From positions 1 through 34,703 of the forward strand of contig SLJX01000136.1 in the NCBI GenBank assembly GCA_007134885.1: 34,703 nt of DNA. Reading direction: 5' to 3'. Of the stretch, positions 5,875-28,410 are shown in pieces. Below the pieces are notes generated by a model that had not been told where the DNA came from, ran no database searches, and saw only the letters and a list, made by a program, of their open reading frames with translations. The DNA comes from Halanaerobiaceae bacterium. Lineage in GTDB: Bacteria; Bacillota; Halanaerobiia; Halanaerobiales; Halarsenatibacteraceae. The position numbers and the translations under genes were made by a program. The number at the start of each line of letters is the position of its first letter. Positions within the stretch are counted from its first letter, which is position 1.

Positions 5875-6156
5875 ATGGAAGTTGTAGTTTCGTTATTACC
5901 CTGGATTTTGATTTTTGGTGTTTTCTGGTTTTTCCTGATCAGGCCGCAAAAAAAGCAACAGAAACAGCATCAGGAAATGCTGGACAGCCTTGAGGTTGGG
6001 GATGAAATTATTTCTGCCGGCGGTATTAGAGGCAAGATAATCAAGATCAAGGATAATATTGTCAGGCTGAGAATTTCCCCCGAGGTTGATATTGAGATGA
6101 TGAAGAGTTCCATCAGCCAGCTGGCCAGACAGAAAGAAGAAGCTGAAGAGGAATAG
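5875..6156 (+). CDS. yajC: Preprotein translocase accessory subunit YajC
   Basis: YajC is a small single-span membrane protein that associates with SecDF and the SecYEG translocon. The 93-residue product has one N-terminal transmembrane helix (about residues 5-22, LLPWILIFGVFWFFLIRPQ) followed by the signature RPQKKQQKQ and the cytoplasmic domain LEVGDEIISAGGIRGKIIKI. An AAGGAGGA ribosome-binding site is 6 bases before the ATG. A terminator-like hairpin follows at 6292-6318, before the signal peptidase gene. Confidence 0.97.
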   Translation: MEVVVSLLPWILIFGVFWFFLIRPQKKQQKQHQEMLDSLEVGDEIISAGGIRGKIIKIKDNIVRLRISPEVDIEMMKSSISQLARQKEEAEEE

Positions 6157-6291
6157 CTGTAAAATTAAGCAGCAGTGCTCTGGATCTGGATTTATTTCTT
6201 TAGTTAATTCCATTTTGTGACTCGCTTTACAGCTCAGGATTGCTTAATTAAACCCAGACAAACAGACAGACAAACAGATAAAAAATAACAG

Positions 6292-6318
6292 CAGGCTTTG
6301 AAAAAGCCTGACATTTTT
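6292..6318 (+). terminator. Terminator-like hairpin after yajC
   Basis: An 8-bp stem, CAGGCTTT (6292-6299) with AAAGCCTG (6303-6310), has a 3-base loop and is followed by ACATTTTT. It may terminate or attenuate transcription between yajC and the signal peptidase gene. Confidence 0.65.
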
Positions 6319-6368
6319 AACTGTTTAATTGTTTGATCTTGTACAATTTTGAATAGGAGGTAACCTCT

Positions 6369-6923
6369 GTGGATAAGGGCGATATCAAGGAATTTATCCA
6401 GTCGCTGGTCATTGCAGGTGTACTGGCTTTTTTAATTATAACCTTTGTAGCCCAGTCTTTTGTGGTTGAAGGCAGCTCCATGCAGCAAACCCTGGATAAT
6501 GGAGAGAGACTGATAGCTAATAAATTAATTTACCGTTTTCGTGACCCGCAACGGGGAGAAATAGTGGTCTTTACTCCCCAGGGGGCCAGTGATCAGAGAT
6601 ATATCAAGAGAATAATTGGCCTGCCCGGAGATACTGTCTATATCAGAAATGGACAGGTTTATGTTAATGGTGAACCACTGGAAGAGGATTATATCAAAGA
6701 AGATATGCGGGATATTGGAGATTCAGGGCCCTTCGAGATTCCCGAAGGGGAATATTTTGTGCTGGGGGATAACCGCAATCACAGTGCCGACAGCAGATTT
6801 CCTGGGCTGGTTGGTTATGTTGACAGAGATTCCATTCATGGTAAAGCTTTCTGGGTTTTCTGGCCTCTGGGTGAGATGAGAGTTCTGGAGCACGAGGAGT
6901 ATAATATTGATAATCAGGAATAA
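6369..6923 (+). CDS. lepB: Type I signal peptidase
   Basis: This membrane serine protease removes signal peptides from exported proteins. The 184-residue protein resembles the short SipS type: one N-terminal transmembrane helix (about 12-30), the catalytic serine at S37 in EGSSM, the general-base lysine at K80 in RYIKRIIGLPGD, and the late box GDNRNHSADSR. It starts with GTG, supported by TAGGAGGT just upstream. Its place between yajC and secD is notable, because these genes are usually adjacent. The context links signal-peptide cleavage with late translocation. Membrane topology is inferred as N-in with an extracellular catalytic domain. Confidence 0.96.
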   Translation: MDKGDIKEFIQSLVIAGVLAFLIITFVAQSFVVEGSSMQQTLDNGERLIANKLIYRFRDPQRGEIVVFTPQGASDQRYIKRIIGLPGDTVYIRNGQVYVNGEPLEEDYIKEDMRDIGDSGPFEIPEGEYFVLGDNRNHSADSRFPGLVGYVDRDSIHGKAFWVFWPLGEMRVLEHEEYNIDNQE

Positions 6924-6975
6924 TTATCTTTATATTAATTAAAATTTATTTTTTATTCTGTAGGAGGATGAATTT

Positions 6976-8199
6976 ATGAGGTATAAACAAAAACGCAGGC
7001 TGAAAATTGCTTTTATTGTCGGAGTTATAGCTCTGGCAATATTTCTTTATTCTTTTTATGGCATAAATCTCGGCCTGGACCTGGAGGGCGGGGCCCATAT
7101 TGTTCTTCAGGCTCAGGAAACCGAGGATCGCACCATTGACCGGGAAACTATGACAGGAATAGTCAGTGTGATTGAAAGAAGGGTTAATGAACTGGGTCTT
7201 TCAGAACCGGTCATTCAGACCGAAGGATCAGATCGCATCATTGTCGAACTGCCGGCTGTCGACAATCCTTCGGAAGCAATTCAAACCATCGGCCGGACAG
7301 CTATGCTTACCATCCGCAATCCCGAAGGAGAGGTGCTGTTAACCGGAGATAGAATAACAGATGCCCGGGCCAGCTATGATGAACACGGCCGACCGGTGGT
7401 CTCCTTCCAGCTGGATCGAGAGGGCTCTCGAGAGTTTGAAGAGATTACCCGGATGTATATGGGGCAGCGGATCGGGGTTTATCTGGATGAGGAGCAGCTG
7501 ACCAACCCCACAGTTCAGTCGGTGATCCGGGATCAGGGCCAGATAACCGGCTATGCCAATGTCCGGGAAGCTGAAGAACACGCTGTCCTGATCAGGGAAG
7601 GTGCCCTGCCGGTACCGGTAGAAGTAATGGAAAGCCGGACCGTGGGACCAACCCTGGGAGCAATAGCCATCCAGCAGAGTATCAGAGCAGGCCTAATTGG
7701 CCTGGCCCTGGTAGCAATCTATATGATTTTTTATTATAAGTTTCCCGGAATTCTGGCAGCCTCCAGCCTCATTATCTATGGTATAGTGATGATGGGAACC
7801 CTGGCCGGTCTGCAGGCAGTTTTAACCCTGCCGGGAATTGCCGGTATCATTCTCTCCATCGGTATGGCTGTCGATGCTAACATTATTATCTTTGAGCGCA
7901 TCAAGGACGAGCGTAACAGCGGGAAAAGTATCAGAGCGGCAATTGATGCCGGCTTTAAAAGAGCCTATATCACTATTGTTGATGCCAATGTTACTACGTT
8001 AATTACGGCTTCAATTCTGGCCTACTTTACTTCCGGTGCAGTCAGAGGATTTGCCGTCACCCTGATTATTGGAATTCTGGTCAGCATGTTTACGGCCTTC
8101 CTGATCACCAGAAGCCTGATCGATGTCTTTTCCCAGTCCAGTTTGATTCAGACCGAGAAGTCCTTCGGTGCCAACAGGGGGGTTCAGCAGAATGCTTAA
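6976..8199 (+). CDS. secD: Protein translocase subunit SecD
   Basis: SecD works with SecF to use the ion-motive force for protein export. The 407-residue protein has a first membrane helix (about 9-29), the signature GINLGLDLEGGAHIVL, an extracytoplasmic domain of about 190 residues, and five more C-terminal membrane helices with the GMAVDANIIIFERIKDE motif of the RND-like family. AGGAGG lies 8 bases before the ATG. Its end overlaps the start of secF by 8 bases, so the two are translationally coupled. Confidence 0.98.
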   Translation: MRYKQKRRLKIAFIVGVIALAIFLYSFYGINLGLDLEGGAHIVLQAQETEDRTIDRETMTGIVSVIERRVNELGLSEPVIQTEGSDRIIVELPAVDNPSEAIQTIGRTAMLTIRNPEGEVLLTGDRITDARASYDEHGRPVVSFQLDREGSREFEEITRMYMGQRIGVYLDEEQLTNPTVQSVIRDQGQITGYANVREAEEHAVLIREGALPVPVEVMESRTVGPTLGAIAIQQSIRAGLIGLALVAIYMIFYYKFPGILAASSLIIYGIVMMGTLAGLQAVLTLPGIAGIILSIGMAVDANIIIFERIKDERNSGKSIRAAIDAGFKRAYITIVDANVTTLITASILAYFTSGAVRGFAVTLIIGILVSMFTAFLITRSLIDVFSQSSLIQTEKSFGANRGVQQNA

Positions 8200-9094
8200 T
8201 TTTGACAGTGATAGACTTGATTTAATGGGTAAAAGAAAAATCTGGTTTACCGTAGGAGGAGCAATTGTAATTCTTTCCTTGCTTGCCCTGCTGGTCTTTG
8301 GTCTCAATCTGGGGATTGATTTTGCCGGGGGGACAATTATAGAGTTCAGCTTTGAAGAATTGATTCCCACAGAAGATGTACGGGCGGTGCTGACCGAGAT
8401 CGGCATTGCCGAGGATGCTACCTTGCAGACGACCATCGAGGATCAATATCAGGGTGTCATCATCAGAACCAGTGAACTATCCCCCACTGAGATTGAACAG
8501 GTAGAAAATGCTGTTCTGGCTGAATTTGCCGGGGCAGAAGTTTTAAGGACCGATATGGTGGGTCCAACTATCGGGCAGGAACTGAGAAGGCAGGCCTTGC
8601 TGGCCCTGCTGGTAGCCGGTCTGGCCATGGTAGCTTATATCAGCTTCCGTTTTGAGCCAAAATTTGCTATTACCACCCTGGCCACCCTGACCCATGATGT
8701 GCTCTTTACCGTGGGCATCTTTGCCCTGCTGGGACGGGAGATCAATACTGCCTTTGTAGCTGCGCTTCTCACCATTGTTGGTTATTCCATCAACGACACC
8801 ATTGTTATCTTTGACAGGATCCGGGAGAACATGAAACTCTACCGGAAAATGCCCTTTATTGAACAGGCCAACCGGGCGGTGGTCGATACCCTGCCCCGTT
8901 CCATCAACACCTCGATGACCACTCTGGTAGCGATTCTGGCCATCTATTTCTTTGGAGGTGCTGCCATCAGGACCTTTATGCTGGCTCTTTTTATTGGCCT
9001 GGCTGTGGGAACTTATTCCTCCATTTTTGTAGCTAGCCCGATACTGGTTGACTGGGATATTAGAGCGAAAGCCAGAGCGAAATCCCGGAGCTAG
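8192..9094 (+). CDS. secF: Protein translocase subunit SecF
   Basis: SecF is the partner of SecD. The protein from the ATG at 8192 has 300 residues. It shows an N-terminal membrane helix, the LNLGIDFAGGTIIEF signature, a compact periplasmic-type domain, then five membrane helices including the GYSINDTIVIFDRIRENM motif. A GTG at 8168 is in frame and would add eight residues. AGGGGGGTT at 8176-8183 is placed correctly for the ATG at 8192, which also gives the usual N-terminus, so I prefer the ATG. Confidence 0.97.
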   Translation: MLNFDSDRLDLMGKRKIWFTVGGAIVILSLLALLVFGLNLGIDFAGGTIIEFSFEELIPTEDVRAVLTEIGIAEDATLQTTIEDQYQGVIIRTSELSPTEIEQVENAVLAEFAGAEVLRTDMVGPTIGQELRRQALLALLVAGLAMVAYISFRFEPKFAITTLATLTHDVLFTVGIFALLGREINTAFVAALLTIVGYSINDTIVIFDRIRENMKLYRKMPFIEQANRAVVDTLPRSINTSMTTLVAILAIYFFGGAAIRTFMLALFIGLAVGTYSSIFVASPILVDWDIRAKARAKSRS

Positions 9095-14995: not shown

Positions 14996-17131
14996 ATGGA
15001 TCTCAATAAGATTTTCAAAAAAATTAAAACCTATATAACTGACCCTGATTTGAGTGAGATTAAGCAAGCTTATGAAGTTTGTAAGGAGGCTCATCAGGGT
15101 CAATATCGTATTTCCGGGGAGCCCTATGTCGATCATCCCCTGGGAGTGGCCTATATTTTAGCCGAGCTGGAGCTGGATTTAACCACCATCACCGGAGCAC
15201 TGCTTCATGATGTCCTGGAGGATTCCAAAATAACCAGAGAAGAAATTGTCGAGGAGTTTGGCGAGGAAATTGCCCTGCTGGTAGATGGTGTCACCAAACT
15301 GACCCGGATTCAGTTTAAGACCAAGGAGGAACAGCAGGCTGAAAGTCTGCGCAAGATGTTCCTGGCTATGGCCGATGATATCAGGGTAGTTCTAATTAAA
15401 CTGGCCGACCGGCTGCACAATATGAGAACCCTTGGTTACATGAACCGGGAGAAACAGCTGGAAAAGGCCCAGGAGACCCTGGATATATATGCCCCTCTGG
15501 CCCACCGGCTGGGGATGTCCCGTCTTAAGTGGGAGCTAGAGGATCTCTGTTTCCGCTATCTCAAGCCCGAAATGTATTATGAGGTTTCCCGCAAAATAGC
15601 AGCCAACCGCAAGGAGAGAGAAGACCAGATCCAGGAGGCTATTGATAAAATTAATAATCATCTGGAAGAGGAGGACATCAAGGCCGATATCTCCGGCCGG
15701 CCCAAGCATCTTTACAGTATCTATCAAAAGATGGAAAGGAAGGAAGTAGACTTTAATGAAGTTTATGACCTGACAGCCGTCCGGGTTCTGGTAGACTCAG
15801 TCCGGGAATGTTATGAGGTTTTGGGCATAATTCACGAGATCTGGAAACCAATGCCGGGCCGCTTTAAGGATTATATTGCCATGCCCAAATCCAACATGTA
15901 TCAGTCCCTTCATACCACCGTAATAGGCCCTGATGGTGATCCCCTGGAGGTTCAGATCCGGACCCGGGAGATGCACCGTACCGCCGAATACGGAATTGCC
16001 GCCCACTGGAAATACAAGGAGGGAAAAAGGAGCGACGGTGAATTTGAGGAGAAACTCTCCTGGCTCCGCCAGCTCCTGGAATGGCAGAAGGATCTCCAGG
16101 AACCCCACGAATTTATTGAAACTTTAAAGATTGATCTCTTTGAGGACGAAGTCTTTGTTTTCACCCCCAAGGGCGATGTCATTTCTCTGCCCCGGGGAGG
16201 AACCCCGGTGGATTTTGCCTATAACATCCATACCGAGGTCGGCCACAACTGTGTGGGGGCCAAGGTCAACGGCAAAATAGTTCCGCTGGAATACAGCCTG
16301 GAAAATGGCGATATAGTGGAAATCCTGACTTCCAATAATTCCACCGGTCCCACCCGGGACTGGCTGAAATTCGTCAAGACCTCCCGGGCCAGGAGCAAGA
16401 TAAAGCGCTGGTTTAAGCAGCAGCAGAAGGAGAAGATTGTGGCCAGCGGCAAAAAATCTCTCTTCCAGGCTCTGGAAAAGGATGAAATTGAATTATCCAA
16501 GGAAGAAAAACAAAAAGTTCTGCAGAAGGCAGCTAAAGAATTGAACTATTCGGACCTGGAGTCTCTGTATGCCGCCATTGGCTACGATCAGCTGACTACC
16601 CGTCAGGTTATAAATAAGATTCCGGAGGAGTATAAAAAACAGGTTGAGCTTCAGGATCTGATCAGCAAACCCCGGAAAAAGTCTACTGACCGCGGTGTCA
16701 GAGTTAAAGGAATGGATGATATTCTGGTCCGTCTGGCCCAGTGCTGCAATCCGGTACCCGGCGATGATATAGTCGGTTATATCACCAGGGGCCGGGGAGT
16801 TTCTGTCCACCGCTCGGACTGCCCCAACCTCAAGGGCCTCAGCAAAGATAGATTTATCGAGGTTAGCTGGAGCGGCACCCGCACCGGCTCCTACCAGGTT
16901 GAACTTTCCATCCGGGCGGTCAATAAATCAGCTCTGCTCAATGAAATAACCGGCCTGATTTCCAAGGAAAAGATTGAACTTCATTCAGTGATGGCCAACA
17001 CTGATAAATACAATCAGGCCTATATTAAGCTTGCGGTGGAACTTAGCAGCCTGGAACACATGCGGGATTTAATTAAAAAAATAGAAAACGTCTCCGGCGT
17101 GCTTTCTGTCAGCCGCTCCCGACCCAGTTAA
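14996..17131 (+). CDS. relA: Bifunctional (p)ppGpp synthetase/hydrolase Rel
   Basis: This stringent-response enzyme both makes and degrades (p)ppGpp. Its 711 residues show the HD hydrolase domain with metal ligands around H47 and H71-D72 (LLHDVLEDS, intact, so hydrolase activity is expected). The synthetase domain has GRPKHLYSIYQKM and RFKDYIAMPKSNMYQSLHTTV. The TGS domain (about 385-445) begins VFVFTPKGDVISLPRG, and the conserved CCNPVPGDDIVGYITRGRGVSVHR segment is followed by the C-terminal ACT domain (about 635-711). AGGAGT precedes the ATG. Confidence 0.98.
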   Translation: MDLNKIFKKIKTYITDPDLSEIKQAYEVCKEAHQGQYRISGEPYVDHPLGVAYILAELELDLTTITGALLHDVLEDSKITREEIVEEFGEEIALLVDGVTKLTRIQFKTKEEQQAESLRKMFLAMADDIRVVLIKLADRLHNMRTLGYMNREKQLEKAQETLDIYAPLAHRLGMSRLKWELEDLCFRYLKPEMYYEVSRKIAANRKEREDQIQEAIDKINNHLEEEDIKADISGRPKHLYSIYQKMERKEVDFNEVYDLTAVRVLVDSVRECYEVLGIIHEIWKPMPGRFKDYIAMPKSNMYQSLHTTVIGPDGDPLEVQIRTREMHRTAEYGIAAHWKYKEGKRSDGEFEEKLSWLRQLLEWQKDLQEPHEFIETLKIDLFEDEVFVFTPKGDVISLPRGGTPVDFAYNIHTEVGHNCVGAKVNGKIVPLEYSLENGDIVEILTSNNSTGPTRDWLKFVKTSRARSKIKRWFKQQQKEKIVASGKKSLFQALEKDEIELSKEEKQKVLQKAAKELNYSDLESLYAAIGYDQLTTRQVINKIPEEYKKQVELQDLISKPRKKSTDRGVRVKGMDDILVRLAQCCNPVPGDDIVGYITRGRGVSVHRSDCPNLKGLSKDRFIEVSWSGTRTGSYQVELSIRAVNKSALLNEITGLISKEKIELHSVMANTDKYNQAYIKLAVELSSLEHMRDLIKKIENVSGVLSVSRSRPS

Positions 17132-17294: not shown

Positions 17295-17744
17295 ATGCGG
17301 GCAGTGGTTCAACGAGTTAGCGAAGCCAGGGTTCTGGTAAATGAAAAAGAAGTGGGTGCCATAGATTCAGGTCTCTGCGTTTTTCTGGGGGTGGGAGAGG
17401 AGGACAGCCAGGAAGATGCTGATTACCTGGCTGATAAAATTGTCAATCTCCGGATTTTTGCCGATGAGGAGGGTAAAATGAATCTCTCGGCTCTGGCACT
17501 GGATAAAGAACTGCTAATAATATCCCAGTTTACTCTTTATGGAGACTGCCATCAGGGACGTCGCCCCGGCTACAGCCAGGCCGCCTCTCCTCAGCGGGCA
17601 GAGGAGCTTTATGACTATTTTTTGGAGAAACTTAAAGATTATAGCCTTCCGCTGGCCAGTGGAGAATTCAAGGCTATGATGGAGGTTGATTTGATCAATG
17701 ATGGTCCGGTAACCCTGCTGCTGGACAGTCAGAAAAATTTTTAA
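17295..17744 (+). CDS. dtd: D-aminoacyl-tRNA deacylase
   Basis: Dtd hydrolyses D-aminoacyl-tRNAs and glycyl-tRNA(Ala), protecting translation from wrong chirality. The 149-residue product has the active-site segment SQFTLYGDCHQGRRPGY at about 77-93 and the Gly-cisPro motif NDGPVTLLLDS near the C-terminus, both diagnostic. Length is normal. GGAGGAG lies 8 bases before the ATG. rel-dtd adjacency is common in Firmicutes, and the next gene follows after about 40 bases, suggesting one transcript. Confidence 0.98.
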   Translation: MRAVVQRVSEARVLVNEKEVGAIDSGLCVFLGVGEEDSQEDADYLADKIVNLRIFADEEGKMNLSALALDKELLIISQFTLYGDCHQGRRPGYSQAASPQRAEELYDYFLEKLKDYSLPLASGEFKAMMEVDLINDGPVTLLLDSQKNF

Positions 17745-17780: not shown

Positions 17781-18422
17781 GTGATTTATATTAAAATAAC
17801 CACGATTAAAACAGGCAGAAATGCCACCAACTGTTACGTTGTGGTAAGTTCAGGAGAAGCTCTGGTGATTGACCCTGGCTCAAAAAAAGAGGTCGACAAA
17901 ATTAAGAGCACAATTGAGACCGAAGAAGCCGTTTTAAAATATGTTTTAAATACCCACAGCCATTATGACCACATTGGAGGAAATAAGACTCTGCTGGCCG
18001 GCTCAGCGGCGGAACTTCTGGCCCATCCTTCGGCGGCTGACAACCTGACCGATCCCCGGAAAAACCTGTCAGTCTTTATGGGAGCGGATTACAGCAGTCC
18101 TGAGCCTGATTGCAGTCTGGAAGCCGGAGCAGTTCTGAAGCTGGGCAATGAAGTCTTCGAGACCTACCATATTCCCGGACATTCGCCAGACAGCCTGGCG
18201 CTTTATTCATCCTCCGAAAATTTGATCTTTGCCGGTGATTTAATTTTTAGTGGTGGCATTGGCCGCACCGACCTTCCCGGGGGAGACCAGCAGCAGTTAA
18301 AGAAATCTGTCGATCTTCTACTGCGGGAGCTTCCACCGGAAACCCGAGTTTATCCCGGCCACGGTGAACCGACCACTCTAAAAAAGTTTAAGGAAGAGGT
18401 TTATCCGGTTTTAAGGCGTTAA
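17781..18422 (+). CDS. MBL-fold hydrolase, glyoxalase II-like
   Basis: This metallo-beta-lactamase-fold protein shows the metal motif THSHYDHIGG (H59, H61, D63, H64 counted from the GTG), a later GHSPDSLALYS histidine, the bridging aspartate in FAGDLIFSGGIGRTDLPGGD and the final histidine in VYPGHGEPTTL. All ligands for a two-metal site are present. Homologues hydrolyse S-lactoylglutathione-like thioesters, though the substrate here is unknown. The conventional start is the GTG at 17781. However, the Shine-Dalgarno sequence GGGGTGAT overlaps that codon, and an ATT at 17790 is better spaced and may be the true start. Probably cotranscribed with dtd. Confidence 0.88.
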   Translation: MIYIKITTIKTGRNATNCYVVVSSGEALVIDPGSKKEVDKIKSTIETEEAVLKYVLNTHSHYDHIGGNKTLLAGSAAELLAHPSAADNLTDPRKNLSVFMGADYSSPEPDCSLEAGAVLKLGNEVFETYHIPGHSPDSLALYSSSENLIFAGDLIFSGGIGRTDLPGGDQQQLKKSVDLLLRELPPETRVYPGHGEPTTLKKFKEEVYPVLRR

Positions 18423-18811: not shown

Positions 18812-20080
18812 ATGTTTAATGAACTCAGGAATTATAGTAGAATAATAGTTTATATTGTGGTTGTAGCCTTTGTAATTAGTGGTGGTTTTATGGGTTACGG
18901 TGCTCTTTTTGGAGGCGATACCGGTGGTCAGCCGGAGGGCCCGACCGATATTCAGGATGCCATAGTGGTTGTTAACGGGGAGGAGATCCCCCGCCAGCAG
19001 TATCTCAATATTCTGGATAACTATCGCCAGCAGACCGCCAATTTCACCCGTTCTCAGATGCTGCCTTTTCGGCTCAGCATTCTGGAATCTCTAATAGAAG
19101 AGAACCTTATAATTCAGGAAGCCCGGGAGCGGGGAATCAGCCCGGAAGTTAGCGAAGTTGAAATTGAAGAATTCCTTCAGCAGATACTGGATCAGAATCA
19201 GATGGAGATGGAAGAACTGGAACAGATCATGGAAATGCAGGGCATGACCATGGAAGATCTACGGCAGAGTCTGCGCTTTTCTTTAGAACAGCAGGCTATG
19301 GTTGAAGAAGCCAGGGAAGATATTCAGGGAGATGTCAGTGTTTCGGAAGAGGAGATAGAGGAAAGATTTTCCGAACAGTATGAAGATGAAGATCTGGATG
19401 AAGAGGAGGCCGAGGAAGCCCACCAGGAGATTGAAACCCGCCTGAGAGAAGAAAAGAAACAGCAGGCCTTTGACGACTGGCTGGCTGAGAAGAAAGCCTC
19501 TGCCGAGATAGAAATTAAGGACCCCGGTCTGCAGGGGCTGAAATATATGGAAGAAGATCGTTATGAGGAAGCCCGACAACAGTTCCACAGCGCTCTGGAA
19601 TACAGCAGAGACCCTGCTCTCTATATTTTCCTGGCCGAAACCTATCAGAATGAAGAAAGACATGCTGAAGCTGAAGAGGTCCTGATTGAAGCCCTGGATG
19701 AGGATCCTGAAAACTGGGAGCTTGCCTATCAACTGGGAGAACATTACCGCCAGATTGAAGAAGAAGAACTGGCTCTGGAGAAGTACGACCAGGCTTCAGA
19801 ATTTGCCGGCCGGAATCTAATGGCACGCTATCAGCTTAATATGGCTTACAGCCAGCTGGAAGCGGAGGACCGGGCTGCTGAAGAGATGGAGAAGTTTGTC
19901 GACATTCAGCAGCAGTACCAGGAAGTTGGTGCCGAAGGAATGGCTCCGCTGCCGGAGGGCGAAGAGCTGGATGAAGAGGATCTCGAGGAGCTGGAAGAAC
20001 TAGATCCCGAGGAAGAACTGGAAGAGGATCTGGATGAGGATCTGGAGGAAGATCCCCTGGAAACTGAACCTCTGGAATAA
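18812..20080 (+). CDS. Membrane-anchored SurA_N/TPR protein without PPIase domain
   Basis: The 422-residue protein has an N-terminal membrane helix (about 11-33), then a SurA/PrsA-type N-terminal chaperone region (about 50-175, IVVVNGEEIPRQQYLNIL, LIEENLIIQEARERGI). The C-terminal SurA helix appears directly after it (about 205-235, LREEKKQQAFDDWLAEKKASAEIEI). The parvulin PPIase domain expected between these is missing. Three TPR-like helical repeats follow (about 237-365), then an extremely acidic tail (about 382-422). It is probably an extracytoplasmic chaperone or scaffold. AAGGGAGGT precedes the ATG by 11 bases. Domain assignment comes from sequence pattern; function is inferred. Confidence 0.8.
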   Translation: MFNELRNYSRIIVYIVVVAFVISGGFMGYGALFGGDTGGQPEGPTDIQDAIVVVNGEEIPRQQYLNILDNYRQQTANFTRSQMLPFRLSILESLIEENLIIQEARERGISPEVSEVEIEEFLQQILDQNQMEMEELEQIMEMQGMTMEDLRQSLRFSLEQQAMVEEAREDIQGDVSVSEEEIEERFSEQYEDEDLDEEEAEEAHQEIETRLREEKKQQAFDDWLAEKKASAEIEIKDPGLQGLKYMEEDRYEEARQQFHSALEYSRDPALYIFLAETYQNEERHAEAEEVLIEALDEDPENWELAYQLGEHYRQIEEEELALEKYDQASEFAGRNLMARYQLNMAYSQLEAEDRAAEEMEKFVDIQQQYQEVGAEGMAPLPEGEELDEEDLEELEELDPEEELEEDLDEDLEEDPLETEPLE

Positions 20081-20240: not shown

Positions 20241-21503
20241 ATGACAATCAAAGCTCCGCGGGGGACAAATGACATTTTGCCCCCCGCTTCTTTTAAATGG
20301 AATTACATTGAAAAACATGCTCACGAGATCTGCCGGCGTTACAATTATCAGGAGATCAGGACCCCGATATTTGAACATACTGAACTTTTTGCCCGGGGAA
20401 TTGGCGAGGCCACCGACATAGTTCAGAAGGAGATGTACACCTTCACCGATAAGAGCGATAGAAGCATCACCCTGAGGCCGGAGGGCACCGCTCCGGTAGC
20501 CCGGGCTTTCTTAGAACATAAGCTTTACGGTAAGGCCTTACCTAAAAAATTTTTTTATTTTGGCCCTATGTTCCGCTACGAGAGACCTCAGGCCGGACGT
20601 TATCGTCAGTTCCACCAGTTCGGAGTTGAAGTAATAGGCAGCGATGCCCCCGATGTTGACGTCGAGATAATCACGCTGGGGATAGATTTTATTGAAGAAT
20701 TTGGTTTCGAGGATTATTATGTGGAAATCAACAGTATCGGCTGTCCCGAGTGCCGACCTTCCTATCTTGAGGAGCTCAAGACCTATTTAGCCGGGAAAGA
20801 GGAACTCTGTGAAAACTGCCAGGAGAGACTGAAAACCAACCCTCTCCGGGTGTTGGACTGCAAGAGTCCGGTCTGTCAGGAGATCGTTAGCGAGGCCCCG
20901 GTGATAACCGATTATCTCTGTCCCGACTGCCAGGAAAACTTCAGTCAGGTCAAACAGGGTCTGGAAAAACTCAAGCTGGACTTCAAAGAGGTGCCTACCC
21001 TGGTTCGGGGACTGGATTATTACACCAACACCGTGTTCGAAGTCAAGTCCGATGAACTGGGGGCCCAGGATGCCATCTTTTCTGGAGGCAGATACAACGG
21101 CCTCCTGGAAGAGATCGGGGACCGCGACATCCCTGCCACCGGCTTTGCTCTGGGACTGGAAAGGTTGGAGATTCTGCTGGAAGAGGCCGCCCGGGAATTT
21201 GGCGATGATCTCCAGGTCTACATCACCACCATCGGCGAGGAAGCCGAAGCAGAATCTCTGGATATCCTCCACCGGTTGAGGCAAGCTGGTTACTCGGCCG
21301 ATCGGGACTACGGCGGCCGCAGTGTCGGCAGCCAGATGAAGGATGCCGACCGCAAAAACAGCCGTTACTGCCTGATCATCGGCAGCGAAGAGCTTAAAGC
21401 CGGCGAGGTTAACCTCCGCGACATGAAAAGCGGTGAGGAAGAGTCCGTTCCCCTGGATGGGATCCTGGAGCAAATGAGTAAAGTGTTTGAGCCTGAGCCT
21501 TAA
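20241..21503 (+). CDS. hisS: Histidyl-tRNA synthetase
   Basis: HisRS, a class II synthetase, charges tRNA-His. The 420-residue protein starts MTIKAPRGTNDILPP. It has motif 2 (MFRYERPQAGRYRQFHQFGVE), the histidine-specific loop VRGLDYYTNTVFE, the GGRYNGLLEEIG segment and motif 3 (GFALGLERLEILL). A Cys-rich insertion with pairs CPEC, CENC and CPDC (about 175-235) is typical of Firmicute HisRS and may bind zinc. The C-terminal anticodon domain is complete. AGGTGAT precedes the ATG. No T-box was seen upstream. Confidence 0.98.
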   Translation: MTIKAPRGTNDILPPASFKWNYIEKHAHEICRRYNYQEIRTPIFEHTELFARGIGEATDIVQKEMYTFTDKSDRSITLRPEGTAPVARAFLEHKLYGKALPKKFFYFGPMFRYERPQAGRYRQFHQFGVEVIGSDAPDVDVEIITLGIDFIEEFGFEDYYVEINSIGCPECRPSYLEELKTYLAGKEELCENCQERLKTNPLRVLDCKSPVCQEIVSEAPVITDYLCPDCQENFSQVKQGLEKLKLDFKEVPTLVRGLDYYTNTVFEVKSDELGAQDAIFSGGRYNGLLEEIGDRDIPATGFALGLERLEILLEEAAREFGDDLQVYITTIGEEAEAESLDILHRLRQAGYSADRDYGGRSVGSQMKDADRKNSRYCLIIGSEELKAGEVNLRDMKSGEEESVPLDGILEQMSKVFEPEP

Positions 21504-21879
21504 TGGTCGGTACCGGGTTCCTTGACAATTTTCGACAGATGTCCTGTCAAATTTTAACACAGTTCACCTTGCTGGATCTGATGATTTTTCTTTCTTTTTA
21601 TTTTATCTCTTTATCCTAATAACTATAATATTTTCATCTACTTACATTTACAAAATTGCTTTTATCTTTAAATTCAGTCCTTTCATATTTGGTTTATTGG
21701 GGTGTTTTCACACAAAGCCGGGGTGCAAAAACCGGCTATCTTTATAAGCTATTCAAAACTATAAGAAACTATTTTACTTTTATTTTTTTACTTTTTTTAT
21801 GCCATTTCTTTCAGGATCTCTCTTTTGTATCCGGATCATTTGCTTCAGACAAAGCATGAAGCAGATATCAAGATATCAA

Positions 21880-21974
21880 GCCAGTAATAGTGAAAGTATT
21901 ATCCTATTACATAGTGAAAGTATTATTCTCTTATTCTGTACCGCCAGTAATAGTGAAAGCATCATTCTGTACCG
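21880..21974 (+). repeat. Imperfect direct repeats with TAGTGAAAG core
   Basis: TAGTGAAAG occurs three times, at 21888, 21912 and 21951. The longer unit GCCAGTAATAGTGAAAG is exact at 21880 and 21943, and TTCTGTACCG appears twice (from about 21934 and at 21965-21974). Spacing is irregular (24 and 39 bases), so this is not a CRISPR array. Confidence 0.6.
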
Positions 21975-22014
21975 GGGAATTGTTTATTTTAAAAGTTATA
22001 CCATCCCGGTACAG
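21967..22014 (+). repeat. 10-bp inverted repeat CTGTACCGGG
   Basis: CTGTACCGGG (21967-21976) and CCCGGTACAG (22005-22014) are perfect inverted copies with a 28-base AT-rich loop, followed by TTATTATTTTAGG. This could be a long-loop terminator or the end of a small insertion. Confidence 0.55.
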
Positions 22015-22235
22015 TTATTATTTTAGGTTTTTTTATCAAAATCAAATCTTCAGGATTAACTAAAATTGGGAGGACAATGATGTGGTAGTTAAAAACTTCA
22101 AAGCAGTTTTTTAAAGCTTCTCTGGAGAAAATAGTTGCCTATGTTAAAAAGTTATCCTTCTTTTAAAAATACTTCTTTAAAAGTTTGAATAAGGCGCTGA
22201 TATTTACCATTTACATATTAAATTTTATCAAAATT

Positions 22236-22251
22236 AAATTACCGGTAAACC
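22236..22251 (+). repeat. Second copy of the AAATTACCGGYAAACC element
   Basis: It differs by a single base from 13955-13970 in the apt leader, and ATTTAGCAG follows both copies. It lies 122 bases before aspS. The internal hairpin of the apt copy is not preserved. Confidence 0.45.
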
Positions 22252-22373
22252 GCATAGTGTTTCGCAAAATTTAGCAGCAGCTGATCAATAATCACAAAAA
22301 CGGGGAAAGAAAAGAAGCAGTGCTTGAGAACTAAATTATTGAACCTGAAGAGCATGATAAGGAGAGTGCATTA

Positions 22374-24164
22374 ATGTATTTGTCAAATCAGAGAAAGTTA
22401 AATAGAACCAACATCTGCAGTCAACTTGACAGGGAAATGATAGGTGAAGAGGCAACAGTAGCAGGCTGGGTACAGCGCACCCGGGATCATGGCGGACTTC
22501 TTTTTGTCGATCTTCGGGACAGATCCGGCCTGGTACAGCTTGTCTTCTCTAAGAAAATTTCTGCCGAGGCCCTGAAAATGGCCGAACGACTGGGCCAGGA
22601 AGATGTCATAGCCGTCAAAGGATTAATCCGGAAGAGGCCTGAGGAAAATATTAACCGGGAGATTGCCACCGGAGAGATTGAAATAATGGGAGAGGAAATA
22701 GAGCTCATTTCCCCTTCTGAAACTCCGCCTTTTTTAATAGAGGATAAGGTAAATGCCGGGGAGGATCTGCGGCTGGAGTACCGCTATCTCGATCTCCGCC
22801 GTCCCGAGATGCTGGAAATCGTTAAAACCAAGCATCAGACAATGCAGGCCATTCGGGGGTTTCTCAGCCAGCGGGATTACTGGGAGGTAGAAACCCCAAT
22901 CTTGACCCGCAGCACTCCAGAGGGTGCCCGGGATTACCTGGTTCCCAGCCGTCTCCATCGGGGAAAATTCTATGCCCTGCCTCAGTCCCCTCAGCTCTTC
23001 AAGCAGGTCCTGATGGCATCGGGAGTCGAAAGATATTTCCAGATTGCCCGCTGTTTTAGGGATGAGGATCTCCGGGCTAACCGTCAGCCGGAATTCACCC
23101 AGATAGACATCGAGGTTTCTTTCATTGATCTGGAAAACTTTCAAAGAGAAATGGAAGAGCTGATGAGAGAGATCTTTAGCCTGAAGGGCATTTCCTTGCC
23201 CCGGGAAGTCCCCCGCCTGAGCTATCGGGAAGTCATGGATCGCTTTGGTTCCGACAGCCCCGACACCAGATTCGGTCTGGAAATTAATGACCTTTCCGGG
23301 ATTTTCGCTGATAGTGAATTCCGCGTCTTCAGCGGTACCATTGCTGATGGTGGTACTGTTAGAGGAATTAGAGTTCCGGGAGGAGCAGAATTCAGCAGGA
23401 GTCAGCTAGATAGGCTGGAAGAGAGGGTCAAAGAGTTTGGTGCCAAAGGCCTGGCCTGGCTGGTTTTTAGCAGCGAGGAAGTCAGCTCTCCAATTGCTAA
23501 GTTTCTTAGCGAAAAGGAATTTCAGCAGCTCAGAGAAAAACTGGAAATAACAGCAGGAGATCTACTTTTGATAGTGGCAGCCGATTATAAAACTGCGGTA
23601 GCCTCCCTGGGTCAGCTGCGCCTGGACCTGGGCTGCAAACTGGATTTAATTCCCGAGGATAGCTACGACCTCCTCTGGGTCGAAGACTTCCCCCTCTTTA
23701 CCTACAACGAGGAAGAGGAACGCTTTGAAGCTGAGCACCATCCCTTCACCGCTCCACTGCCCGAAGATATTGAACTGCTGGAGGAAAACCCGGCAGAGGC
23801 CAGGGCAGCCGCCTATGATCTGGTTTTAAACGGTGAAGAAATTGGTGGTGGAAGTATCAGAATCAACAACAGAGAGCTGCAGAGCAAAATATTTTCCCTG
23901 CTGAACATGTCAGAGGAGGAGGCCGAGGAGAAGTTCGGTTTTTTGCTCAAATCCTTCAGCTACGGGACTCCACCTCATGGCGGAATAGCCTTCGGCCTGG
24001 ATCGAATTATCATGCTTCTGACCGGAAGAAAGTCCGTCCGGGATGTCATCGCCTTTCCCAAAACTCAGCGGGCCACCTCGCCAATGACAAAAGCTCCCGG
24101 AACAGTAAGCCCGGAGCAGCTTAAGGAATTAAACCTGAAAACAATTTCTCCGGAAGAAGAATAG
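22374..24164 (+). CDS. aspS: Aspartyl-tRNA synthetase
   Basis: AspRS, a class IIb synthetase, charges tRNA-Asp. The 596-residue protein has the anticodon-binding OB-fold (AGWVQRTRDHGGLLFVDLRDRSG), motif 2 RYFQIARCFRDEDLRANRQPEFTQID, the bacterial GAD insertion (about 280-420), and motif 3 YGTPPHGGIAFGLDRIIMLLTG. Length is typical of bacterial AspRS. AGGAGAG precedes the ATG. hisS-aspS proximity is standard in Firmicutes, but here 870 bases separate them. I cannot tell from motifs alone whether the enzyme is discriminating or also charges tRNA-Asn. Confidence 0.98.
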   Translation: MYLSNQRKLNRTNICSQLDREMIGEEATVAGWVQRTRDHGGLLFVDLRDRSGLVQLVFSKKISAEALKMAERLGQEDVIAVKGLIRKRPEENINREIATGEIEIMGEEIELISPSETPPFLIEDKVNAGEDLRLEYRYLDLRRPEMLEIVKTKHQTMQAIRGFLSQRDYWEVETPILTRSTPEGARDYLVPSRLHRGKFYALPQSPQLFKQVLMASGVERYFQIARCFRDEDLRANRQPEFTQIDIEVSFIDLENFQREMEELMREIFSLKGISLPREVPRLSYREVMDRFGSDSPDTRFGLEINDLSGIFADSEFRVFSGTIADGGTVRGIRVPGGAEFSRSQLDRLEERVKEFGAKGLAWLVFSSEEVSSPIAKFLSEKEFQQLREKLEITAGDLLLIVAADYKTAVASLGQLRLDLGCKLDLIPEDSYDLLWVEDFPLFTYNEEEERFEAEHHPFTAPLPEDIELLEENPAEARAAAYDLVLNGEEIGGGSIRINNRELQSKIFSLLNMSEEEAEEKFGFLLKSFSYGTPPHGGIAFGLDRIIMLLTGRKSVRDVIAFPKTQRATSPMTKAPGTVSPEQLKELNLKTISPEEE

Positions 24165-26203: not shown

Positions 26204-26388
26204 AATAGAAAAGTTCTGCCGTGTACGTGAATGGTAAAAAAATTTTGACCAACACCAATACATTGGGAGCCTGGTCTCTATCTGCGGCGCAGAAGCCCCC
26301 TGGGGGACCTGCAAACCAGGTAGGAGGGCACCCACTTTGCAGACAGGGATCAAAATTCTCAAACCACACGGCACGGTGGAGCTTTTCT
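26204..26388 (+). ncRNA. ssrS: 6S RNA
   Basis: This RNA of about 185 bases has a long closing stem: AAGTTC (26211-26216) pairs with GAGCTT (26379-26384, one G-U), and TGCCGTGT (26217-26224) with ACACGGCA (26366-26373), leaving a 5-base bulge. The inner part contains CCTGGT/ACCAGG and the GGAGGGCACCCAC segment I associate with 6S RNAs. It has a promoter at 26169-26197 and T-rich sequence after the stem. B. subtilis also has a 6S gene in its aspS-yrvM-rarA neighbourhood, so the position supports the call. 6S RNA imitates an open promoter and sequesters sigma-A RNA polymerase. Exact ends are inferred. Confidence 0.8.
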
Positions 26389-26999
26389 CTGTCAATATAT
26401 TTCCTGCAAATTCCTCACGAATAAATCTCCAGCTATATTCTTCTTCTGTTTATCATTTCCTGGCCGATTACAAGTTCTTACGTATCTTCTTCCTGTTAAA
26501 TCCACTCCTGTTAATTTTCTCTAGATCCTTAAATTTTTTTAACCATTACTTATTTGATAATTATTATTGCTGTTTCTGTCAAATTTAGCAAACTTTTAAT
26601 TTTAATTGTAATTTTCTCCCGAATCCTTTGCAATCTTATTGTCTTTTTGATATTATATGATGTAAGTAAATTAATCTAGACAATTTCAATAGCAATTTAT
26701 GGGTATAAGTTTTCGGTATAAGTTTCTGGCAGGATCTAATTGCCTTTTTCGCTAGGATCTGACTGTCTCTATAAAATTAGTTTGGCAGGTTTTTTTGGCC
26801 GCTTTTGTTAAATTTTGTACTTGCTGCAGTATCAAACTAAAACACACTTTAAGGTAATTAATGTCTGAGGTTAACCAGTGCCCCGGGTTATACAGAACAA
26901 CCAGCTTAACCTGGCAAAACCATCAGATATTTATCTCAATGATTCTCACATTCCGCTAAATGCTGGTGATTTAGTCATAAATATTGTCTCTCATTCCAA

Positions 27000-27098
27000 T
27001 AAATACTGGAGAGTTTGTTACTAATATTTTTTCAAGCCTTCGTATACTTAAAAGTTAAACATGAATCATTTTTTTAACCCTGTAAATACTGGAGAGTT
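27000..27098 (+). repeat. Direct repeat overlapping the rarA ribosome-binding site
   Basis: TAAATACTGGAGAGTT occurs exactly at 27000-27015 and 27083-27098. The second copy contains the GGAGAG ribosome-binding site of rarA, so the first is a decoy site or the trace of a small duplication. Confidence 0.65.
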
Positions 27099-27102
27099 AG
27101 CC

Positions 27103-28410
27103 ATGAACCTCTTTTCCCAAAATAAAAATAAGGACAAAGAACCCCTGGCCTTCCGGATGCGTCCGGAGAGCTTTTCCGAACTCCACGGCCAGGAGCACAT
27201 TACAGCCCCCGGTAAACTGCTGCGCCGAATGATTGAGTCTGACAAACTTCAGTCCCTGATTCTCTATGGGCCCCCCGGAACCGGTAAAACCAGTCTGGCC
27301 CGGATCATCTCCTGCCAGACCGAATCCGAATTTATCAAACTAAATGCCGTAACTTCGGGAGTTAAGGACCTCCGGGAGGTAATTTCTCAAGGCCAGGATA
27401 ATCTTGAGCTCTATAACAGGAGCACCATACTCTTTATCGATGAGATTCACCGCTTCAACAAAGCCCAGCAGGACGCCCTGCTGCCTTCGGTGGAAAAGGG
27501 AATCATTATCATGATCGGGGCCACTACCGAAAATCCCTATTTTGAGGTCAACGCTCCGCTGCTTTCCCGCTCCCGAATTTTTCGGCTTAAACCCCTGGAA
27601 AAGCAGGATATCATAAAAATAATTCACCAGACCCTTGAGGACGAAGAACGCGGTCTGGGCTATCTTGATATTGAAATTTCTCAGGAAACAATAGATTTTC
27701 TGGCCGACAGATCGGGAGGCGATGCCAGGGTAGCCTTGAACGCCCTGGAAATTGCCGCCCTGTCCACTCCCTCTGACCGGAAAGGTAGGATAGCACTGAC
27801 CAGGGATGTAATCGCCGATTCCATGCAGGAGAAAATTTTTAAATACGATAAGAGCGGAGATAATCACTATGATGTCATCTCGGCCTTCATTAAGAGCATC
27901 CGGGGTTCCGACCCTGATGCCGCCCTCTTCTGGCTGGCCCGGATGATCAAAGCTGGCGAGGACCCCATGTTTATCGCCCGCCGTATCATAGTTCATTCCG
28001 CTGAAGACATCGGTCTGGCCGATCCCGCCGCCCTGGGAATTGCCGTCGATGCAGCCCGGGCCCTGGAGTATGTCGGCCTGCCCGAGGCCCGCATCCCGTT
28101 GGCCCAGGCCGTGATCTATCTGGCTGCCGCCCCAAAGAGTAATTCTGTCATTACCGGCATCGACCGGGCCCAGGATTACCTGGAAAACAACGACCCCGGT
28201 TCGGTCCCCCCTCACCTGCGCGACACCCATTACCAGGGAGCTCAGGATCTGGGCAGCGGCCTGGATTATAAGTATCCCCATAGCTATGAGAAAAACTATG
28301 TCGAGCAGGATTACCTGCCCGAAAACCACCGGGAGGCTAGTTTTTATCAGCCGGGAGATCAGGGCCAAGAAGAGAAGATAAAAAAATTTCTTAAATATCT
28401 CAAAGAATAA
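27103..28410 (+). CDS. rarA: Replication-associated recombination ATPase RarA/MgsA
   Basis: RarA is an AAA+ ATPase related to clamp loaders that acts at stalled replication forks. From the ATG at 27103 it has 435 residues. It shows RMRPESFSELHGQEHI, Walker A LYGPPGTGKTSLA, Walker [21 protein letters not shown], sensor IGATTENPYFEVNAPLLSRSRIF and the C-terminal RarA domain with ARRIIVHSAEDIGLADP. The frame opens at 27061 with an ATG lacking a ribosome-binding site. The ATG at 27103 has GGAGAG 6 bases upstream and gives the normal N-terminus. Confidence 0.97.
   Translation: MNLFSQNKNKDKEPLAFRMRPESFSELHGQEHITAPGKLLRRMIESDKLQSLILYGPPGTGKTSLARIISCQTESEFIKLNAVTSGVKDLREVISQGQDNLELYNRSTILFIDEIHRFNKAQQDALLPSVEKGIIIMIGATTENPYFEVNAPLLSRSRIFRLKPLEKQDIIKIIHQTLEDEERGLGYLDIEISQETIDFLADRSGGDARVALNALEIAALSTPSDRKGRIALTRDVIADSMQEKIFKYDKSGDNHYDVISAFIKSIRGSDPDAALFWLARMIKAGEDPMFIARRIIVHSAEDIGLADPAALGIAVDAARALEYVGLPEARIPLAQAVIYLAAAPKSNSVITGIDRAQDYLENNDPGSVPPHLRDTHYQGAQDLGSGLDYKYPHSYEKNYVEQDYLPENHREASFYQPGDQGQEEKIKKFLKYLKE

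Follow-up and report, generated by a model that had tools for sequence, protein, structure and literature searches.

What does a SurA-like protein do when it is fixed in a membrane, carries TPRs and has no parvulin domain, and how did it come to be without one? A gene directly upstream of hisS in a Halanaerobiaceae bacterium raises both questions. The window that we analysed is the whole stretch of 34,703 nucleotides in which this gene lies (assembly GCA_007134885.1, contig SLJX01000136.1), and the genome is a draft metagenome-type assembly of 207 contigs, 95.84% complete. A single open frame with an ATG start encodes the protein of 422 aa. Its parts and the neighbouring genes are the following.

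5875-9094: yajC, signal peptidase S26 gene (lepB), secD and secF
14996-17131, + strand: relA, upstream neighbour
17295-17744, + strand: dtd, upstream neighbour
17781-18422, + strand: gene of a metallo-beta-lactamase-fold hydrolase (MBL), upstream neighbour
18812-20080, + strand: the whole gene, 422 aa, with anchor, SurA-type NC core, TPR and acidic tail; parvulin absent
18842-18910, + strand: transmembrane anchor, about residues 11-33, preceded by two Arg and predicted from the sequence to lie N-in/C-out
18953-19306, + strand: SurA-type N-terminal part of the chaperone core, residues 48-165, from the Pfam profile and from the model of residues 41-240 matching SurA
19370-19426, + strand: acidic linker, residues 187-205, from orthologue alignments and composition
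19427-19519, + strand: C-terminal helix and strand of the chaperone core, residues 206-236, from the AF2 helix 197-230, the strand 233-235 and the SurA alignment reaching residue 428
19520-19921, + strand: TPR solenoid, residues 237-370, from TPR_19, the AF2 helices 238-376 and VIA matches
19928-20077, + strand: acidic tail, residues 373-422, predicted unstructured, not conserved
20241-21503, + strand: hisS, directly downstream

The preliminary description had presented a membrane-anchored SurA-like protein with TPRs and no parvulin, in which the N domain runs through an acidic linker into the C helix. Both points are borne out by Pfam profiles and the AF2 model, the second also by composition. 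SurA_N_3 (PF13624) matches residues 1-162 (E 1.8e-17) and the transmembrane anchor falls within this match, which starts at residue 1. SurA_N_2 (E 1.9e-10), SurA_N (E 2e-9) and TPR_19 (best stretch 246-305, E 3.2e-8) lie, like SurA_N_3, above their curated cut-offs. A profile search for a divergent PPIase domain found none in the protein, no Rotamase family being among its 17 Pfam families at E<=1. Fourteen NCBIfam models were matched, none near its own cut-off. The linker is 58% D/E, and residues 376-422 are 57% D/E and devoid of K/R.

An AF2 model of the whole protein was built from three sequences (the window protein, L001 and L002) and has a mean pLDDT of 73, with values below 50 in the anchor region and in residues 373-422 and of about 88-96 per block in residues 201-330. 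In this model, paired helices from 238 to 376 form a regular helix-pair solenoid. Residues 231-360 have a block pLDDT of 81-96, and structure searches match TPR solenoids, for example 8far_A in VIA (Z 16.2, 132 aligned). On these three grounds, residues 238-376 are not a generic coiled coil, a reading against which the TPR assignment had to be checked.

Since TPR chains filled the fold search of the whole model, the core was modelled separately (residues 41-240 alone, shallow alignment; mean pLDDT 73.5, pTM 0.55). Its best match in Foldseek is a SurA chain, 9hg9_F (E 7.8e-4, TMq 0.54), and SurA chains make up 11 of the first 13 rows. In VIA, 173 residues align with 9hg9_F at Z 9.4 and rmsd 4.8; model residues 4-198 lie on SurA 21-428, and the alignment spans both ends of SurA while skipping its PPIase domains. 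A second structure, 8hm3_B, is tied with it (Z 9.7, rmsd 6.1). The alignment is poorer with 8zht_A, a solved PpiD-YfgM complex (Z 4.6, 162 aligned). The N and C parts model, with moderate confidence, as the SurA core minus its PPIase domains, although the tool itself cautions that helical modules easily reach a Z of about 9, which for them is not high. At the sequence level, the anchor and N domain give an hhalign probability of 97.1 against E. coli PpiD, with 30% identity over columns 1-143; the two anchors align, and both proteins match PF13624.

The gene sits within a block of the order relA, dtd, MBL, the gene, hisS and aspS. In 95 of 97 loci, hisS lies directly downstream on the same strand, at a spacing of -1 to +370 bases; the other two loci are contig ends, and among the 97, L001 and L002 repeat L005 and L006. 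The gap between hisS and aspS in the window is long (21503-22374), unlike in most relatives, where the two genes are close together; at 21880-21968 it contains a 26-base repeat three times over, imperfectly copied. Further along, a 6S RNA (RF00013, 106.3 bits) is encoded at 26210-26386 (+ strand), between the aldehyde dehydrogenase and MgsA/RarA genes, and a 34-base repeat occurs three times (74-100% alike) at 26957-27116, just before and into the start region of the MgsA/RarA gene.

The gene is real and conserved. Orthologues were found in 37 of the 38 genomes of the order and in 58 of the 59 of the class, the sole genome of the class without one being an assembly 77% complete; G028 has no match to the gene. 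A profile of the order's proteins also detected the gene in further families of the phylum outside the class, and 37 such loci were read. After removal of L120, a fragment without the N domain, the orthologue set fell from 95 to 94. At E<=0.01, SurA_N_3 and TPR_19 are found in each of the order's 37 proteins, and Rotamase families in 8-9 of them. Median pairwise identity in the order is 0.56 for the anchor, 0.38 for the core, 0.37 for the TPR and 0.19 for the tail, and in the orthologue alignment the linker is, like the tail and unlike TPR and core, not conserved. The composition of the tail differs as well, being acidic in family f1, 63% Q/N in one family (f6, Q/N-rich) and below 30% D/E in many. 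The acidic tail of the preliminary description is thus present in the window protein, but it is not a conserved feature. We found no earlier description of this protein in the open-licence literature.

In 45 of the 94 orthologues, the site of the acidic linker is taken by a parvulin domain about 90-100 aa long, which lies between the N domain and the C helix with the TPRs behind. Since TPRs and PPIase coexist in all of these proteins, it is the PPIase whose presence varies; the idea that TPRs had taken its place was rejected. To score the domain we used our own profile, built from f8, f9, f11 and two sequences of f10, together with the histidines in the columns of ASHILI and GYHIIKV in f11, which we take to be the catalytic ones. 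Both motif histidines are present in 25 orthologues, the first is lost in 9 and both in 11, and the whole domain is absent from 49. It is intact in 8 of 8 proteins of f11, has lost the first histidine in 6 of 6 of f8 and both in 9 of 9 of f3 and f5, and is absent from all 28 proteins of f1, f2, f4, f6 and f7. Within a single genus of f10, G047 has an intact parvulin whereas G046 is without the domain. The proteins of f3 (8 genomes) and f5 (1 genome) exceed the others by about 90 residues, which make up the parvulin domain; PF00639 lies above cut-off in 8 of these 9, the ninth having a sub-threshold Rotamase_2 match only.

These relatives also bear on a trivial explanation. The draft state of the window's assembly might suggest that the missing parvulin is an artefact of assembly or frame, yet the domain is missing from more than half of the set, in many assemblies, some of them single contigs, and each time from one open frame. 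This refutes the artefact, which we find scarcely credible.

The history of the domain was followed on a tree of the orthologues (94 rows, 347 columns, parvulin columns left out). On the best tree, parvulin presence switches 7 times; starred (well-supported) branches force at least 5 of these changes, and none of 500 shuffles was as low. Such a tree gives changes and not their direction, gain or loss. Two observations make us read them as losses: the domain always occupies one and the same joint, which is also its place in SurA and PpiD, and some copies are decayed. Repetition is seen in the pattern itself, and the irreversibility of such losses, together with the SurA/PpiD domain order, points to loss as its direction. 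A loss-only count gives 9 losses (8-11 on 200 bootstrap trees), a figure that depends on the loss-only assumption and on the chosen root. On the best tree, the parvulin-bearing f3 and f5 are nested among parvulin-less families of the order. As the AU test does not reject a single clade of the 28 parvulin-less rows (p 0.176), we do not claim several losses inside the order. On a tree of the parvulin alone, the order's 9 sequences form a single clade (100/96), as vertical descent would give, but class and outsiders are mixed (5 and 4 changes, 2 and 1 forced). The repeated loss of the isomerase domain in these outer-membrane-bearing relatives of Clostridia, with the client-binding core and the TPRs retained, suggests that the domain is dispensable. 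This graded and repeated loss in one syntenic gene, and the confinement of the gene in our sample to genomes with an outer-membrane marker, are the striking points, more so than the single window protein.

Prolyl isomerases are scarce in the window's genome. At 95.84% completeness, neither of the two Rotamase families searched for genome-wide, PF13616 and PF00639, gave a match at E<=1e-3, and there was none to cyclophilin; a single FKBP match lies in a 430-residue frame that, from its size, is probably trigger factor. PF00639 is absent from all four genomes of the genus, two of them only 76-77% complete. On the strength of these absences, and with the lone FKBP probably trigger factor, the window's genus appears to be without a recognised extracytoplasmic prolyl isomerase. 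Across the order, a PF00639 parvulin is absent from 8 of the 38 genomes (G000, G027, G028, G029, G024, G030, G021 and G034; some incomplete), and in most other genomes PF00639 occurs in a separate protein about 330-370 residues long.

Across the phylum as sampled, the gene goes with the outer-membrane marker Omp85. Our phylum sample comprised 299 genomes, 77 with Omp85 (76 above cut-off) and 222 without. At E<=1e-30 the gene was found in 47 genomes, all 47 Omp85-positive, and in none of the 222 Omp85-negative ones (Fisher 1e-34, uncorrected for kinship). A wider profile that includes the parvulin (A3) matched at least 255 of the 299 genomes, and only rows reaching both of its ends were counted; most A3 matches cover the N domain and the parvulin (about positions 1-325) and are presumably PrsA-type proteins. 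Full-length A3 matches add at least 14 further genomes, all Omp85-positive, each with N, parvulin and TPR in one frame, and among the hisS matches listed, hisS lies 115-231 bases downstream in 9 of these 14. Sixteen Omp85-positive genomes were left without a counted match. The hisS loci of 10 of them showed the gene in two (G094 and G135, both without parvulin) and no gene in eight, which brings the gene to at least 63 of the 77 Omp85-positive genomes. In f40 and f70 (L130-L137), 8 of 8 Omp85-positive hisS loci are without it; this diderm group either does without the gene or has it elsewhere.

At 50 hisS loci from Omp85-negative genomes, chosen from the 222 (L140 and L159 cut by contig ends), the N, parvulin and TPR profiles found no match, and 34 of the 50 keep relA, dtd and MBL. 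This weakens a hint taken from the neighbourhood. The export genes yajC-lepB-secDF do lie in the same region, as had been noted, but the gene belongs to the block around hisS, which persists at those loci without it. Closeness is no evidence of partnership, and we set SecDF aside as a functional link.

In the window's genome, Omp85 and OmpH/Skp occur together on contig C164, and OmpH is present in 38 of 38 genomes of the order. BamA, TamB and Skp have been described in Halanaerobiales and Negativicutes in a survey whose main text does not name SurA or PpiD (0 occurrences each; PMC5007114). Shared ancestry could explain the link with Omp85: on a weak Dtd+MBL tree of 72 rows the Omp85 label changes 6 times, with 1 change forced by starred branches, that is, one supported independent pair. 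In that case the gene would be a vertical marker of long standing in some Bacillota lineages, and its role in secretion would be a general one, unrelated to the outer membrane, as the vertically inherited gene order of the hisS locus would also allow. Such a purely phylogenetic link seems quite improbable to us, as the sample covers many families and the same survey (PMC5007114) argues that the diderm Firmicutes lineages are separate, each near monoderm relatives, with several outer-membrane losses.

We give roughly even credence to the view that the protein is a periplasmic holdase of diderm Bacillota, anchored in the inner membrane at the Sec exit, where it probably catches newly exported proteins. 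Its N and C parts fold together into a client-binding core of the SurA/PpiD type, as profiles and modelling show. The transmembrane helix may keep this core close to where the Sec channel opens, and the TPR solenoid could be a docking arm, a role that YfgM fills in trans in E. coli. The chaperone would take freshly exported proteins as clients, among them outer-membrane proteins bound for Omp85/BamA. The parvulin insertion, ancestral in this scheme, would not have been needed: its catalytic motifs would have degraded in some lineages, and in others, that of the window included, the domain would have been removed at its boundary, leaving the short acidic linker.

The comparison with E. coli guides this proposal. 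There, the YfgM TPR domain binds the PpiD NC core, and the pair is reported to act as one unit at SecYEG (PMC9643414); the parvulin of PpiD is described as catalytically dead, and in a model YfgM's TPR grasps PpiD by two helices, of which the second is C-terminal (PMC9797188). As the TPR of the window protein follows directly on the C-terminal helix of the core, we propose a chaperone in one chain. With PpiD it shares the N-terminal anchor, the SurA_N_3 domain and the NC core; PpiD differs in its 623 aa, its extra domains, its lack of TPR and its dead parvulin (PMC9797188), where the window protein has the TPR in its chain and the parvulin gone. YfgM is likewise an anchored TPR protein, docking on that NC core according to PMC9643414. 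Its family, however, is TPR_21 (PF09976), which is not among the Pfam families of the window protein at E<=1, and hhalign detects no relation between the two TPR regions (probability 0.7). A fusion of PpiD with a YfgM homologue was accordingly rejected at the sequence level and kept as an analogy only: the likeness is one of design, not of membership. E. coli yfgM adjoins hisS too, but downstream of it, and we do not count this adjacency as evidence. A PpiD-YfgM complex is also mentioned for Bacteroides (PMC12718326), and Campylobacter PpiD is reported as an active isomerase (PMC5368265), so that isomerase loss is not the rule everywhere.

Other relatives are more distant. SurA shares the core fold made from N and C parts; it has two parvulin domains, whereas the window protein has an anchor, no parvulin and an added TPR. 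SurA itself is not known to have a membrane anchor. PrsA-type foldases of Bacillota come from the same phylum and have a SurA-like N domain, with weak fold matches, for example 5tvl_C (Z 6.7 over 64 residues). These foldases are lipoproteins, and the window protein differs in its TPRs and in having no cysteine, hence no lipobox cysteine. The TDE1658 family of Treponema (NF051879), known here by its listing name alone, gives a weak N-domain match far below cut-off (E 0.0027) and no match containing TPR.

Rather tentatively, and short of even credence, we suggest that the protein may be a separately invented one-chain counterpart of PpiD-YfgM, in which a SurA-type core became joined with an unrelated TPR arm and which is passed on at the hisS locus. 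It would serve outer-membrane biogenesis and vanish with the outer membrane, and its parvulin would have eroded stepwise, through the first histidine, both histidines and the whole domain, at least five times.

The core could instead work as in SurA, carrying outer-membrane proteins, with the TPR docking on Omp85/BamA or TamB and the anchor merely retaining the protein in the envelope. The nearest core folds are indeed SurA chains, several of them in BAM complexes, the gene is confined to Omp85-positive genomes in our sample, and the window's genome has no other parvulin-type match. Yet the anchor is kept in every aligned family and is more conserved in the order than the core (0.56 against 0.38), which argues for an inner-membrane site, and anchor and N domain resemble PpiD; this mode of action is in our eyes rather doubtful. 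The core might also be a structural remnant in an envelope scaffold, the TPR assembling some other diderm-specific complex. TPR conservation equal to that of the core and the dispensable catalytic domain would fit, but a remnant should have decayed as the parvulin did, and the SurA arrangement of N and C parts has been kept as well as the TPR. We regard a scaffold as unlikely.

As an anchored holdase, the protein would be a candidate periplasmic chaperone for diderm Bacillota, in which the main text of the survey names neither SurA nor PpiD (PMC5007114). It has long been asked why SurA, PpiD and PrsA have isomerase domains, which are often dead or dispensable. A single vertically inherited gene here shows the intact, the motif-decayed and the deleted state among close relatives, with differences even between two species of one genus, which makes the effect of the isomerase testable in matched proteins. 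If true, the one-chain counterpart of PpiD-YfgM would be a natural experiment on the purpose of the isomerase in such chaperones.
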